This document shows, in pieces, positions 10,991-16,626 of a stretch of DNA of 50,995 nt. The translations under genes were made by a program, and so were the position numbers. The notes beneath the pieces were generated by a model. It saw nothing but the letters and a program-made list of their open reading frames with translations, searched no databases and was not told where the DNA came from. The stretch is from positions 1 to 50,995 of the forward strand of contig JAFSWM010000055.1 in NCBI GenBank assembly GCA_017444485.1. Reading direction: 5' to 3'. The DNA is from Bacteroidaceae bacterium (GTDB lineage Bacteria; Bacteroidota; Bacteroidia; Bacteroidales; Bacteroidaceae). Position 1 is the first letter of the stretch; every line of letters starts with the position of its first letter.

Positions 10991-11002
10991 AGGTTTTCGT
11001 AT

Positions 11003-13729
11003 TTATATAGCGTACATCTCAAAGAGTTTGTCCAAATCCTCGTTGGTCAACGCGGTTTGCACACGCTCGCGCAGTTCGGTGCTGGCGGCGAAGTCCAGGC
11101 GGCGGTAGGCCTTGCCCGTCGGCGTGCTCTGTTCGCGAATGAGTTGGGCGCGCATCACGCTGGGATTCTCCCCAGCATACTGCGCCAATGCCTGCGCCTT
11201 GCCCACGTTGTCGTCGCGCGTGGCATCGTGCGGCTCAAGGATGTCGAGCAGGTAGCCGCCACCTGCCTCGCGGCGCACCACGAGGAAGTCGGGATAGAAA
11301 CCGCGCATCTGCCCCTTGTAGCGGTAGGGCAGGCACAGCGCGCCAGAACCGCGCGAGGGGTTGCGATACCAACAGCGGAAGTCGGCGCGCCGGCGTTCCT
11401 CGTCTATCACTCCCTGCTCCCATTTGTTCAGTCTGATCCTCGCATAGCCCGTGCGCTCGTCGATGAAGAGGTGGTCGGAGCATTCCGCGCCGTTCTCATC
11501 GCACCTGAAGGCGATGTTCTCGCCCAGCGTGAATGGGACGTTGCTCACCTCTGCACTGTCGCGAACAATGTCGCGGTATCTCGTGCGCAGGGTGTCAGAC
11601 AGATAGATGGTCCTACTGCGATACTTATCATTAAGTTCGCGGTATTTCCTCTTGGCGAACGATGCCAGGGCATCTTGGCAGCCCTCATCAGAGGCGTAGA
11701 TGACCACATCCACCATAAAGTTGCCAGGGTGATTGGTGTCGTCGTACTTCCTGCCGTAGGCCTGCGCCACACCCTGCTCGCCCAGCCTCCTCTCCGCGAT
11801 GCGCACCTGGCGTTCGAGGTCTATCGACGTTTCCAGGAACAAGTCCTTGACGCTCTCCCGCTTCAGTGGTTCGCCAAAGGCATCGTATACCTGAGAGAAC
11901 ATCTCGAAGTTGAGCACCTGCTCCCTGGCCGCGGCATACTTCCCGCTGCGCTTCATGGCCGCAATGTGCTGGTGTATCATCTCCGTCATTTCGTCAATGA
12001 CCGCAGTGTCGGCCTCCACGTCAAGCCCTGAGGTGAGCAGGAACGAAGTGAGTTGAGCCAGCGACTTGATAGGGTTGTTCATCACGAAGCCGCGGATGTG
12101 GTAGGTGGGCAGTGCCAGCCTGTTGATGAATTCCACGATGGCTTCGCGGGCTATGCCATCATACTCAAAGTCGAACGCCGGCTGGGGCGTGGCGGCAGAT
12201 TGCTTTGGATGCCTGGGAATGCTGGCCACCTCGGTGCTTGGGCCTGCTCCATACACGCTGGCTGTGTCGTTCGTCACCTGCGGCGCGTCCCACAGCCCCG
12301 GCCCTTCCTGTACAACGGCAGCCTGCTGGTGGCTGGGGCGCGGACGCGAGGTGAGTATGGTCAGCGTGCCGTGCTGCAAGTCATCTTCATAGATGTCCGT
12401 GGGCAGTTCGCCGCCCTCCGAGTGTTGCAGTTCATCAACGACGGCACTCACGGTCTCCGCATCGAAGTGAGGCAGGAACAGACGCACCTCGTTCAGCGTG
12501 TCATCCACCTGGATGTGCTTCTGTATCGGTGTGCGCACCATGCGCCCCAGTAGTTGCGCGATGGCCGTCGCATCGGTGTAGCGTCGGAACGACATCATCG
12601 TCTCGGCGCGAGGGCAGTCCCAGCCCGTGGAGAGTGTCTCCTTGAAGAAGACGAGGCGCACCCGCTCCGTGTCTTGTATCTTCGACGGCTCACAGTAGAG
12701 CACCTCCCGTCCGCCCACGCTCAGCGCGCCCCGCGTGTCGCCGAAGGCGTGCACGACCTCACCGCTCTCAAAGTGCAGACCCGCGCGCCGCTCTATCATT
12801 TCGAGGCAAGCCGCAAGGTCGGTGTCTGTCACCTTGCCGCCGCTGCCGTTGAGCACCTGCACCACAAACACAGGGCGCACCATCCAGTGGTGCTGCTCCT
12901 TGCAGTATGCCTCCCAGTGGCGGCACTTCGCCACCCACTCGTCGGTGGCGGCGGCGAGCACGGCCATGTCCTTCTGCTCCCCTTGCTCAGCGGGATAGGT
13001 GATGACCACGCGGTCTTTCAACAGGCCGCTCTGCCGCACTTCCTCCGTCAGCACCTTCACGCTGCGCTGCGTGGAGGCGGATTTCTTCACCAGCTGGCTG
13101 AAACGCTCGATAGTGGCCGACATACCGACCACCACCGGCGCGGGCGGCAGGCTGTCGGCCTCCGAGCCGAGGATGAACTTCTGCATAATGGTGGTGGCTC
13201 GTCCGGCCTCCCTGCCGCGCATACCTCGGTGCGCCTCATCGATGATGAAGTAGAGGCGGTCGGATTTCTCGCGGATGGTATTGGCCAGCGTCTCCCAGAT
13301 GGTGTACTGCCGCGCGTCGCTGTGGCGTGTGAGGTTGCTCGTGCGCGAAAGCTTCTGCGTGTTGAGGAAGTAGATGTGCCCCTCCTCCAGCGTCTCGCGG
13401 TCGAAGCCCACGTCCCTTATGGCCACGCACTGGTGCAGGCGTATCTTGTCGGCCTTGGCCGCTATCTTGTCCCTTGACTGCTCGTTGAGTTCTGGCGAGT
13501 CGCTGAGCCACACGAAGATGGCCTCAGGCTGCTCCACAAAGTCCGCGCTACCCGTGAGGATGCTCTCAATGAGTGCGGAGAGGATGATGGTCTTGCCGCT
13601 GCCCGTGGGTGCGGTGAAGGCCACCACCTGCGGTGTACCGTCGTGGCGGTATTCGCTCAGGGCGGCGGCGCACTGGCGGCGCAGTCGCTCCAGGGCGCTT
13701 TGCTGGAAGGAGAAGAGTTCTACTATCAT
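11003..13729 (-). CDS. res: Type III-like restriction enzyme Res subunit (SF2 helicase-nuclease)
   Basis: This 908-residue protein has Walker A in TAPTGSGKT (K46), DEAH box IIDEAHRGM at 162-170, and motif VI QLLGRMVRTP near residue 395, giving a complete SF2 helicase. The C-terminal part carries a PD-(D/E)XK-like region, YPDFLVV near 812 followed by LDILEPH near 830. The canonical lysine of ExK is histidine here. Paired with the Mod gene two positions upstream, it should translocate on DNA and cut unmodified sites. It lies 25 bp after fic in the same operon. Loss of nuclease activity is possible given the altered motif. Confidence 0.88.
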   Translation of the reverse strand: MIVELFSFQQSALERLRRQCAAALSEYRHDGTPQVVAFTAPTGSGKTIILSALIESILTGSADFVEQPEAIFVWLSDSPELNEQSRDKIAAKADKIRLHQCVAIRDVGFDRETLEEGHIYFLNTQKLSRTSNLTRHSDARQYTIWETLANTIREKSDRLYFIIDEAHRGMRGREAGRATTIMQKFILGSEADSLPPAPVVVGMSATIERFSQLVKKSASTQRSVKVLTEEVRQSGLLKDRVVITYPAEQGEQKDMAVLAAATDEWVAKCRHWEAYCKEQHHWMVRPVFVVQVLNGSGGKVTDTDLAACLEMIERRAGLHFESGEVVHAFGDTRGALSVGGREVLYCEPSKIQDTERVRLVFFKETLSTGWDCPRAETMMSFRRYTDATAIAQLLGRMVRTPIQKHIQVDDTLNEVRLFLPHFDAETVSAVVDELQHSEGGELPTDIYEDDLQHGTLTILTSRPRPSHQQAAVVQEGPGLWDAPQVTNDTASVYGAGPSTEVASIPRHPKQSAATPQPAFDFEYDGIAREAIVEFINRLALPTYHIRGFVMNNPIKSLAQLTSFLLTSGLDVEADTAVIDEMTEMIHQHIAAMKRSGKYAAAREQVLNFEMFSQVYDAFGEPLKRESVKDLFLETSIDLERQVRIAERRLGEQGVAQAYGRKYDDTNHPGNFMVDVVIYASDEGCQDALASFAKRKYRELNDKYRSRTIYLSDTLRTRYRDIVRDSAEVSNVPFTLGENIAFRCDENGAECSDHLFIDERTGYARIRLNKWEQGVIDEERRRADFRCWYRNPSRGSGALCLPYRYKGQMRGFYPDFLVVRREAGGGYLLDILEPHDATRDDNVGKAQALAQYAGENPSVMRAQLIREQSTPTGKAYRRLDFAASTELRERVQTALTNEDLDKLFEMYAI

Positions 13730-13754
13730 GGTCTATACGCGTCGTTCGCAGGAT

Positions 13755-14639
13755 TCAGTCCTCTTGTTCGTAGTAATAGGAATAGTCTATGCCTTTCATG
13801 AAGAGTTCGCGGTCGTCGATGCGGTCGGTCAGCGCGCCACGGAGCAGCCCGCGTATCTTCGTGCTGTCCATGTGGCTCTCTATCATCGCGTCGAGATACG
13901 TCCGTTTGTCTATCTTGCTCCAGTCCACGCACAGCGCGAGCCGCTTCTTGAGGATGAGGTCGAGCCAGATGCGCGTGCTGCGTCCGTTGCCCTCCATAAA
14001 GGGATGCGCCACGTTCATCTCCACATACTTGTTCACAATCTCGTCGAACGTACCCTCGGGCATACGCTCTATGGTACGCAGGTTCTGCGGCAGGTATTCG
14101 GCCAGGCAAAATAGTGTGTTGCCCTTGGCGATGGTCTTGGTGCGTATCTTGCCCGCAAAGTCGTACAGCCCGCCGAAGATGTAGGCATGTATCTGCTGCA
14201 ACGCCTTCACCGTCCCCACGTCTTCGACGGCCACGAGGTTGCTCTCCCACAGGGTGTAGGCTTTCTTGCGGCTGCGTCCGTCGATGGAGTTGTCGCTGTA
14301 GGTGAACCAGTCAAGGAAGGCCGCCGTGTTCTTCGACGGAAGCGTCTTAATCACGGCCTCTATGTCCTTTTGCGCAAGGCAGTCCGTGGCATACCGCTTG
14401 CCGTCAGCCGCAACGAGTTTCAGTTGACTACAACGTGTAGCCAACTCGTTGCCCGACTTTCTCAGCCTGGTCTTCAGCACGCTCCAATAGCGTCGTGGAT
14501 TGGGGCTTTCAGTGATTGCGCCCACTATATCCACTATAGAGAAGAACCATTGGCCTTCCTCATTGTTCCAGACGGCGCGCACTTCATGGTCTTTGTAGAA
14601 GCGGAACGAAAGTTTTGTGGTTGAGGAGTGTTCTTTCAT
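13755..14639 (-). CDS. Bro-N domain fused to class III Fic AMP-transferase
   Basis: This 294-residue two-domain protein has a Bro-N/antirepressor-like domain at residues about 10-112, with the pattern RAVWNNEEGQWFFSIVDIVG. Residues about 118-294 form a Fic domain with active-site loop HPFMEGNGRSTR (H212). The C-terminus GIDYSYYYEQED carries an SxxxE inhibitory motif (S287, E291) where class III Fic proteins such as NmFic have S-YYY-EG. Class III enzymes transfer AMP to targets such as gyrase and are auto-inhibited. It lies between mod (9 bp gap) and res (25 bp gap), so it is part of the restriction-modification operon. A role in guarding or regulating that system is inference. Confidence 0.88.
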   Translation of the reverse strand: MKEHSSTTKLSFRFYKDHEVRAVWNNEEGQWFFSIVDIVGAITESPNPRRYWSVLKTRLRKSGNELATRCSQLKLVAADGKRYATDCLAQKDIEAVIKTLPSKNTAAFLDWFTYSDNSIDGRSRKKAYTLWESNLVAVEDVGTVKALQQIHAYIFGGLYDFAGKIRTKTIAKGNTLFCLAEYLPQNLRTIERMPEGTFDEIVNKYVEMNVAHPFMEGNGRSTRIWLDLILKKRLALCVDWSKIDKRTYLDAMIESHMDSTKIRGLLRGALTDRIDDRELFMKGIDYSYYYEQED

Positions 14640-14648
14640 GGCGCTGGC

Positions 14649-16619
14649 TTACTGCGGGCGGTTGATGCGGAAGTTGTCGAGGTAGTCCTTGTAGAGTTGG
14701 AAGGTGGTACGGGGGCTGAGGCGGGCGGCCATCTCGCGGTACATTGTCTCGGAGTCTGTGACGAAGAACACGGTGTTGATGCCCGGCGCATCCTCCACCT
14801 CCTGCACGAAACGGGCATAGGCGCGCCTGTCCACCAGCACGGCGAAGGCGTTCTCTGGCAGCACGAGCATCGGCGGCACGCCGTCGCCCTGCAGCACCGG
14901 CGGTGCGCCGTGGCAGCCCGCCTTCATCCAGAGCAGGGGTAGCAGTTCGCGAAACTGCCTGCCGAGGGCCACGCGGGTCTTGTCGAGGAAACCGAGGCGG
15001 AAGAAGGCGCAGCGCGCGTCGAAGCCGTCGGCCATGGCGCGCTCCGTGCCGAGGTAGTTGCCTTTGAGGAGCTGCCCGTTGATGTCACGCCCGAGGATGC
15101 TGCACACGGTGCGCGGCCAGGTGACGTAGCGGGCTATGCCGAGGCGTTCCCACTCCGCGTCGCCCTGCTTGTGGCCCTGCTTCGTGAGGGCTTTGGCCTC
15201 AGCGTCGCTCACCTCGTTGTTCGTCACCATAATGCAGCGTCTGTGCCCCCCGTCCTCCGCGTTGAGCAGGTTCACGGCGTGCAGCGTCGTGCCGCTGCCT
15301 GCGAAGAAATCGACTATTAACGCGTTTTTCTTATCAGCAACAAAGAACTTTAATGTATCTCGTACGGCATAAAGGGACTTTGGGAAGTCAAAGCGTTTGC
15401 CTATTATTGAATTAAGGATGTTGGTTCCATATGTTTCCGCATTATGCGTAGGCATATTCCAAACCCTTTTAGGAGGGGTTGTTCCTTGTGAATAATAGAT
15501 GGCTTGGATAGAGCCGTCTTCATCGTACCCTAACTTAGTGGCGATGCCACTTTCTATATCTTTAATAGTCCCTTCTGGCAGATAATAGACAGTGCCCTCT
15601 TCCTTTCTTTTATCCCAATTTACTTTTATGTAGCCTTTACCCCAGTTGACGATAGCTTGTTTCTGCTGTAAACTCCATAATCTTTCGTCCCCTTTACTAC
15701 TTAGAGGCCATAAAGCAACACAACCGTCTGGTATGGTGACAGTATGTCTATCAACATTGTATTGCAGAACCTCACCAATAGAATGTATTTTACCATCTAC
15801 CTTAGAAACAAAAATAGGATAGAATTGGTTTGGTCGAGAATGTCTAATCGCTTGTGGTGCTCTACGCCTAAATCCCAGCCACTCAATATGCCTATTGGAT
15901 TCTTTCTTTATTTCAGTATCAAGCATATTGTATTCAACAGGTATTAAATTTGAACTTCCAAATTCAATTATAAATAGGTATTCTTCAACACGAGAAAATT
16001 GCCCTGTTCTAACAACTCCTTTAGCACTTATTACACTTGTTACCATCTGCCTCCTTGCATCGGGGAAGAGTTCTTCAAGCAGACAGCCGAGGTGGAGGTA
16101 CTCCTTTTCGTCGATGGTGACGATGAGCACGGAGCAGGCGGGGTTGAGCAGTTTCTTGGCCAGCAGGAGGCGGCGCTTCATGAACGAGAGCCACTTGGAG
16201 TGGCGGTACTGGTCCGCGCCGTCCACATAGTCGTTGTTGTACTTCCAGTCGCGCGCCCCGGTGTTGTAGGGCGGGTCGATGTAGATGCAATCCACCTGGC
16301 CCGCGTAGAGGTATTGCAGCAGTTGCAGGGCGTGGTAGTTGTCCGCCTCGATGAGGGTGTGCCAATTCTCCCTCGGTCCCTTTGCGGGCGCAGCAATGTC
16401 GTGCGCAGGAATGGTATCCTGCAGTTCCAGATAGGGATATATCGGTTCGCCGAAAGGCACTTCGCGCCCCAGGTCGGGCAGATAGGCGGTTTCGGGGAGG
16501 TGTTCCTCGAAGACGAGGCCGAACTTCTTGTGCTTCAGCGTGCGGCGCACCTCCGCCTCTATGCGTTGGCGCAGGCCATCGTCGGGTATTTGGGCAATGA
16601 GTTCATTCAAGGCTGACAT
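14649..16619 (-). CDS. mod: Type III-like DNA methyltransferase Mod subunit
   Basis: This 656-residue adenine-specific methyltransferase has motif IV CIYIDPPYNTG near 111-121 and motif I VDFFAGSGTTLHAV near 440. That is the DPPY-before-FxGxG order of beta-class enzymes such as type III Mod. The region between them, the target recognition part (about residues 190-436, bases 15310-16045), is clearly AT-rich, while both flanks are GC-rich like the rest of the genome. It starts 7 bp after the MATE stop and is followed by fic and res, so the whole set is probably co-transcribed. The target site cannot be read from the sequence. Confidence 0.9.
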   Translation of the reverse strand: MSALNELIAQIPDDGLRQRIEAEVRRTLKHKKFGLVFEEHLPETAYLPDLGREVPFGEPIYPYLELQDTIPAHDIAAPAKGPRENWHTLIEADNYHALQLLQYLYAGQVDCIYIDPPYNTGARDWKYNNDYVDGADQYRHSKWLSFMKRRLLLAKKLLNPACSVLIVTIDEKEYLHLGCLLEELFPDARRQMVTSVISAKGVVRTGQFSRVEEYLFIIEFGSSNLIPVEYNMLDTEIKKESNRHIEWLGFRRRAPQAIRHSRPNQFYPIFVSKVDGKIHSIGEVLQYNVDRHTVTIPDGCVALWPLSSKGDERLWSLQQKQAIVNWGKGYIKVNWDKRKEEGTVYYLPEGTIKDIESGIATKLGYDEDGSIQAIYYSQGTTPPKRVWNMPTHNAETYGTNILNSIIGKRFDFPKSLYAVRDTLKFFVADKKNALIVDFFAGSGTTLHAVNLLNAEDGGHRRCIMVTNNEVSDAEAKALTKQGHKQGDAEWERLGIARYVTWPRTVCSILGRDINGQLLKGNYLGTERAMADGFDARCAFFRLGFLDKTRVALGRQFRELLPLLWMKAGCHGAPPVLQGDGVPPMLVLPENAFAVLVDRRAYARFVQEVEDAPGINTVFFVTDSETMYREMAARLSPRTTFQLYKDYLDNFRINRPQ

Positions 16620-16626
16620 GGGCTTT

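Follow-up and report, generated by a model that had tools for sequence, protein, structure and literature searches.

The window, by which we mean the whole 50,995-nucleotide stretch of Bacteroidaceae DNA analysed here, holds a gene that fuses a Bro-N domain to a Fic domain and lies between the mod and res genes of a type III-like restriction-modification (RM) operon. We propose that its product is an autonomous, self-inhibited AMP-transferase of the NmFic type, carried as a cassette within the operon, which would provide an independent, possibly abortive, layer of defence or addiction; we judge this reading about evenly balanced between right and wrong. The architecture itself is not new—by profile match the protein is a member of PDC-S04, a listed class of phage-defence candidates.

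The features of the operon are collected in Table 1. All three genes run in the same direction, with 9 bp between mod and the Bro-N–Fic gene and 25 bp between the Bro-N–Fic gene and res, so they are likely co-expressed; the open reading frame coordinates confirm the placement and spacing given in the original prediction. Its description of the RM system as "type III-like" is fair: Mod is assigned to type III with a strong match to the PADLOC MTase_III model (8.7e-146), but Res, a ResIII match at 5.7e-14, matches the PADLOC REase_III models weakly and over part of the protein only (best 1.1e-8).

Table 1. Features of the mod-fic-res operon, numbered from the first letter of the window
Feature	Position	Strand	Basis or remark
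Entire mod-fic-res stretch	10991..16626	(-)	missing between MATE and cytidylate-kinase-like genes of genus relatives
Res, ResIII/DEAD helicase-type restriction subunit, 908 aa	11003..13729	(-)	PF04851 5.7e-14; PADLOC REase_III weak, best 1.1e-8
Bro-N–Fic fusion gene, PADLOC PDC-S04 type	13755..14639	(-)	294 aa, ATG start; PDLC04841 match
NmFic-type Fic domain, about aa 116-294	13758..14294	(-)	Pfam, NCBIfam and PDB matches
C-terminal inhibitory helix motif SYYYE, aa 287-291, then Gln	13767..13781	(-)	sequence and alignment
Catalytic loop HPFMEGNGRSTR, aa 212-223	13971..14006	(-)	sequence and alignment
Bro-N domain, about aa 8-114	14298..14618	(-)	hhalign 99.7%; PF02498 matches of homologues; 44% identity to a Bro-N protein
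Mod, N6/N4 DNA methyltransferase, 656 aa, type III-like	14649..16619	(-)	PF01555 6.5e-16; PADLOC MTase_III 8.7e-146

The identification of the N-terminal domain as Bro-N is well supported by sequence comparison. The window protein itself has no Pfam match to PF02498 (Bro-N) at E≤1; within an alignment of 70 sequences, made up of the window protein and 69 listed homologues that are 56–80% identical to it, PF02498 is matched by 52. An hhalign comparison between a profile built from 21 N-termini and an alignment of 16 PF02498 matches gives a probability of 99.7% (E 2.5e-26), and the N-terminal domain of the window protein is 44% identical over 94 aa to one PF02498-matching Bro-N protein, so the Bro-N-like domain that had been proposed ahead of Fic is borne out by sequence. 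A PDB sequence search with this domain returned no significant chain (best E 0.26). Phage records contained six partial matches to Bro-N–Fic, none reaching 80% of the query, and a scan of viral contigs with the N-terminal alignment gave 125 pattern matches and no confirmed relatives. Of 14 regions around Bro-N proteins without Fic, found through Pfam, five had an RM label within 5 kb, two of these five by a helicase label only (L195 and L205). The pneumococcal prophage protein Bro, as portrayed in the relevant passages of PMC4257102, is a toxin candidate with an ORF6C C-terminus and is not fused to Fic.

The C-terminal domain matches Pfam PF02661 at 1.3e-11, and residues 118–292 match the NCBIfam NmFic-type equivalog NF046029 with 253.5 bits, above the cut-off of 230; the domain also resembles NmFic chains in the PDB over its whole length (best E 6.3e-58), with EfFIC and related chains matching as well. 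Its catalytic loop, HPFMEGNGRSTR, is intact and conforms to the HxFx(D/E)GNGRxxR pattern of class III Fic proteins, so the Fic domain and loop are as originally described. Across the 70 aligned sequences, the catalytic His (replaced by Tyr in L101), the Pro and the second Gly of the loop are each present in 69, and the Glu, first Gly, Asn and both Arg in all 70.

The C-terminal inhibitory helix of class III Fic proteins has a Ser and a Glu in an SxxxE arrangement, which SYYYE supplies: SYYY is invariant in the 70 sequences, and the inhibitory Glu is present in 69 (L090 stops at a contig end before it). In class III Fic proteins Gly or Asn follows the inhibitory Glu. The window protein has SYYYEQ (aa 287–292), which had been read as an inhibitory motif with an odd Gln; SYYYE is intact and the Gln is there, but it is a family trait rather than an oddity, because Q or E occupies the position in 67 of the 70 (Q 42, E 25, L 1, S 1, absent 1) and Gly or Asn in none. 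A degenerate inhibitory motif or local lesion was rejected on the same count. The retention of catalytic and inhibitory motifs at 56–80% identity suggests that Fic catalysis is under selection in the family, and by its motifs the Fic domain is probably a self-inhibited AMP-transferase.

A review (PMC12894286) describes NmFic as AMPylating itself at Tyr183/Tyr188 and then modifying gyrase at Tyr109, and PMC6408439 describes EfFIC as both AMPylating and de-AMPylating itself. The first Tyr of SYYYE is invariant in the 70-sequence alignment. GyrB of the same genome has the equivalent of Tyr109, in the context GGKFDKNSYKVSGGLHG, and Tyr is likewise found at this position in another GyrB homologue, presumably ParE; by analogy, gyrase or topoisomerase IV is probably the target of the Fic domain.

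The whole protein is covered by the PADLOC model PDLC04841 of PDC-S04 (residues 8–294 against positions 3–292 of 292, E 1.8e-141), which means that a single defence-candidate model already describes the two-domain architecture; searching for this architecture, as had been suggested, recovered it both there and in homologues. The type III-embedded protein of L088 and the type I-embedded protein of L002 are likewise end-to-end matches. According to those passages of PMC12988326 that introduce them, PDC candidates were found by 'guilt-by-embedding'. The window protein shares with PDC-S04 the profile match, the architecture and the embedding in a known defence system, here between the mod and res genes of an RM operon. 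In the portion of PMC12409345 that deals with PDC-S04, deletion of such a gene, which may or may not carry Bro-N, from the clinical isolate E. coli NILS69 gave no evidence of defence. A search of open-access literature (preprints excluded) found no paper linking a Fic domain with Bro-N and restriction-modification, and none on Fic with type III RM and an antirepressor.

Several known proteins come close to the window protein. NmFic and EfFIC have in common with it the Fic domain, the catalytic loop, and a C-terminal inhibitory helix with Glu and with Tyr next to Ser; unlike them, it carries a fused Bro-N domain, and Gln or Glu rather than Gly or Asn follows the inhibitory Glu in its family. 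Class III Fic proteins are described as a single Fic domain in the pertinent part of PMC6408439, whereas the window protein has two domains and Gln after the Glu. Because Gly or Asn is missing at this position, we file the protein under PDC-S04 and use NmFic-type as a description only. PDC-S13, a class that includes E. coli DinD (2.4e-121 to model PDLC04919), is alike at the N-terminus, where model PDLC04920 matches residues 11–112 of the window protein at 6.9e-33; its members also occur in an RM operon (L083) and in the mod/res slot (L199 by PDLC04920, L203 by PDLC04919), but they have no Fic domain. The first 267 of the 717 positions of the PADLOC type I specificity model PDLC03083 match E. 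coli DinD (L111:761-1585), which hints that fusions of DinD with a type I specificity subunit exist. PDC-M59 (M59A with Doc) and SoFic resemble the window protein in placing a Fic-fold protein in the mod/res slot of type III operons, but they consist of two genes rather than a fusion and belong to other Fic types. M59A has no Pfam match, and in L281 its C-terminal part weakly matches PDC-S13. SoFic, a class II Fic, acts against phages according to the relevant section of PMC11514479.

The original prediction also called for a tabulation of neighbouring genes and took enrichment next to mod and res as support for a system. Scanning genome contigs with the N-terminal alignment gave at least 541 relatives, from which the best 80 loci were taken; these were selected by rank of similarity to the query, which makes the sample uneven, and contig ends truncate many of their flanks. 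A full-length Bro-N–Fic protein (270–325 aa) is found in 70 of these best 80. We scored 77, leaving out two without an in-frame focal match (L059 and L085) and one whose best match is another Fic protein (L054); copies that are broken or partial (L048, L051, L066, L077, L091, L095 and L096) are counted among the 77. With profiles for HsdM, HsdS, HsdR, Mod and Res, an RM gene lies within 5 kb of 37 of the 77 and within 300 bp of 20 (best 80 of at least 541). This compares with 2 of 20 control sites within 5 kb (one-sided Fisher p 0.0014), which were hand-picked on large contigs of 8 genomes and are neither random nor matched to the collection loci; one of the two positives is a helicase-type label 4 kb away (L139) and the other a type I locus (L145). 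Stand-alone NmFic-type genes have an RM gene within 5 kb in 1 of 11 cases (one-sided Fisher p 0.013 against 37/77). RM labels were assigned by iterated profiles seeded with a few proteins; a Pfam check of nine labelled genes found RM proteins in all nine, the one at L100 belonging to the MmeI type and not the HsdM type. Repeating the labelling on a larger training set put an RM label at 36 of the 77 loci (HsdM, HsdS or Mod at 31, two or more RM labels at 21; best 80 of at least 541) and at 21 of the 40 loci having more than 5 kb on both sides.

The association stands as an enrichment for RM (37/77 against 2/20) but not as one specific to mod and res: the neighbours are mainly type I, typically in the orders HsdS-[fic]-HsdR and HsdM-[fic]-HsdS among the loci listed, and in an even sample of the phylum RM is near in 1 of 13 regions (these include L125, where the focal match is another Fic, L124, where the copy is broken, and several with short flanks). 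Pfam scans covered 30 neighbours at 23 of the 40 loci that lack an RM label and found no RM family. Many neighbours at such loci are housekeeping genes, e.g., an alanyl-type tRNA synthetase (L104), Hsp70 (L098) and DnaA (L103), and a few are defence-like: Cas12a (L091), DUF1016 (L089), KAP NTPase (L041) and a second Fic (L046). The phylum sample and the 23 scanned loci indicate that RM is not needed and that a non-defence role is possible.

On a tree of 80 rows, RM linkage changed at least 16 times among 57 scored tips; the labels of 10 tips outside the 70-sequence alignment were set by hand. It is also weakly clustered: the RM group requires 22 changes where shuffling gives a mean of 26.3, and the moves are thus not independent of descent. 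A plasmid homologue in Treponema saccharophilum sits after hsdS of a type I operon, and no RM gene is annotated near a partial match (39.5% identity over 88% of the query) on a plasmid of Streptococcus dysgalactiae. The Bro-N–Fic gene thus behaves as a mobile cassette that often, but not always, enters RM operons.

The collection loci also showed variation around and within the gene. One type I operon holds two full-length Bro-N–Fic copies with a DinD-labelled 164-aa open reading frame between them (L082:9947-13375), and at L042:8062-12342 the gene is flanked by a penicillin-binding protein gene and an FtsW/RodA-type gene. The Cas12a (Cpf1) gene of L091:4766-10327 is upstream of a broken copy with the Bro-N part alone. 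Short second Bro-N open reading frames precede the full gene at L043:7414-7710 (98 aa) and L047:4353-4733 (126 aa), and the second Fic protein of L046:1709-2677 has a winged-helix C-terminus and lies 167 bp downstream of Bro-N–Fic. At three loci (L051:9998-10441, L077:9995-10654 and L095:9944-10480) the Fic core is partly or wholly deleted in frame, with Bro-N and the SYYYE end kept; as far as its deletion, L095 shares 99% identity with L082, and the matches on either side of that deletion overlap by 10 bp.

Of the loci examined, two have precisely the mod-fic-res order, the window and L088, a Campylobacteraceae MAG from another phylum; type III genes lie within 5 kb at three more (L069, L081 and L090). 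The Bro-N–Fic proteins of the window and L088 fall in different, well-supported clades of the tree; the two Mods share 33% identity over 431 aa and BLASTP finds no match between the two Res proteins, so the loci look like separate insertions. Next to the genes for plasmid relatives of the window's Mod (40–46% identity) from Paenarthrobacter, Deinococcus and Rhodococcus comes a downstream DEAD/DEAH helicase gene that overlaps by 1–4 bp and leaves no room for a guest; from these three related pairs we conclude that Bro-N–Fic is not a standing part of such mod-res pairs. The MATE and cytidylate-kinase-like genes that flank the operon in the window adjoin directly, without the operon, in 16 of 19 genus-relative loci, and the whole operon is therefore most simply a horizontally acquired insertion in this lineage. 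A search of 247 genomes of the class with the window's Mod (E≤1e-60) returned the window's Mod alone, and the PADLOC Mod model had four matches in 395 phylum genomes (E≤1e-40), the window's Mod included.

To place the junction itself in context, a survey of mod-res operons used four type III Mods as queries, two of them from Bro-N-family junctions (L088 and L199), and gave matches in 87 of 395 phylum genomes. We examined 59 regions—57 from the upper part of the Mod list, where some at contig ends were skipped, and two already known; one had no Mod and 10 no Res downstream, and from the 48 scored we set aside L311 and L312 (the L199 and L203 loci). In the remaining 46 operons (L254–L310), the junction is empty in 13 and holds one to three guest genes in 33, with near relatives inflating several guest classes. 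By profile, the guests are DUF1016/YhcG nucleases in 12, PDC-M59A with Doc in six, an M59A-like piece with SoFic in two, and others that are AlbA_2 or AAA-type; Pfam and PADLOC served as a check on representatives, two Doc proteins and one SoFic among them, and several guests are unclassified. Fic-fold proteins are thus at the junction in 8 of 46 (Doc 6, SoFic 2), partly in related genomes. Bro-N–Fic, Bro-N or DinD-like was the best guest label in none of these 46 operons, which were not chosen through Bro-N, and we therefore rejected the idea that Bro-N dominates the mod/res slot. The M59A of L281 matches the Bro-N protein profile, and PADLOC by its C-terminal part. The slot in L199 holds a PDC-S13 Bro-N protein with a classic Bro-N N-terminus and no Fic, and that in L203 a DinD-like PDC-S13 protein sharing 34% identity over 258 aa with E. 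coli DinD. In L272 and L286, open reading frames of 149 aa with a PDC-M59A-like label precede SoFic, as though Doc and a portion of its partner had been replaced.

We picture the protein acting as follows. At rest the C-terminal SYYYE helix would block the active site, as in NmFic; release may come from self-AMPylation of the Tyr equivalent to NmFic Tyr183, from a changed oligomeric state, or from a ligand bound by Bro-N. The released Fic domain would AMPylate GyrB/ParE at the Tyr109 position and so stop replication and growth. Bro-N would most likely give the trigger or the location by binding DNA, nucleoprotein or a phage product. If RM failed or the operon were disturbed, growth would then stop, which would amount to an independent, possibly abortive, defence or addiction layer. 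The abortive second layer of defence put forward in the original prediction is a plausible candidate.

The cassette might instead be chiefly a selfish stabiliser, the Fic protein being a one-gene toxin, inhibitor included, that imposes a cost when the RM operon or its carrier is lost, and phage defence being incidental. We consider this rather unlikely: class III self-inhibition suits a one-gene toxin, Bro-N–Fic is found in many unrelated contexts, and the operon site is empty in 16 of 19 genus-relative loci, most simply through a recent insertion; however, the inhibitory helix is in the same chain and there is hence no labile antitoxin to lose, and the RM enrichment of 37/77 (one sample, best 80 of at least 541) suggests a link with defence. 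That the gene is a mere passenger, a mobile gene that landed at an insertion-tolerant junction and has no functional link to RM, strikes us as distinctly unlikely. The assorted guests in 33 of 46 surveyed operons would fit such a junction, as would the roughly half of the collection homologues not near RM (best 80 of at least 541), but the guests that can be classified are defence-type families (DUF1016/PDC-S02, Doc/PDC-M59, SoFic, AlbA_2 and AAA, with several guests unclassified) and the catalytic motifs are kept.

The protein has also been suggested as a control on Res, and more broadly it might regulate restriction, with Fic AMPylating Mod or Res, or Bro-N acting on the operon or the RM subunits, so that restriction is delayed or tuned during establishment. 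The likely co-expression of the three co-directional genes agrees with this, as do the PDC-S13 proteins (one Bro-N, one DinD-like) in the mod/res slots of L199 and L203 and the DinD–specificity-subunit fusions suggested by PDLC03083. Bro-N–Fic nevertheless occurs with different RM types and often without RM, its RM linkage has changed at least 16 times, guest-free mod-res pairs exist, and the divergence of Mod and Res between the window and L088 makes a specific target in either unlikely; dedicated control on Res is accordingly improbable, and regulation of restriction in general hardly a strong candidate. An autonomous NmFic-type AMP-transferase acting as a defence or addiction layer is instead supported by the NmFic equivalog match, the kept motifs, the target Tyr, the PDC-S04 match and the RM enrichment; it is weakened by the phylum sample (1/13), the PDC-S04 deletion that gave no evidence of defence, the absence of Gly/Asn after the inhibitory Glu, and the losses of the Fic core in three relatives.

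A wider and more speculative extension, which we think has a small chance of being right, is that RM operons share Bro-N, together with the DinD branch, as a surveillance domain with swappable effectors—Fic, the C-terminus of PDC-S13/DinD, and perhaps Doc via PDC-M59A; Bro-N would set off an effector, e.g., gyrase AMPylation, when restriction fails or self-DNA is damaged. If true, Fic-fold back-up killers would commonly dock at the mod/res junction. Across the phylum that was sampled, defence-type genes of various kinds are frequent at mod/res junctions, and Fic-fold enzymes are among them. Should Bro-N prove to be the trigger, the fusion would reveal how restriction and back-up killing are linked. 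The findings give a defence candidate that had been listed without explanation a testable idea: a self-inhibited enzyme, joined to a sensor domain of phage type, that has entered restriction operons of more than one type again and again.
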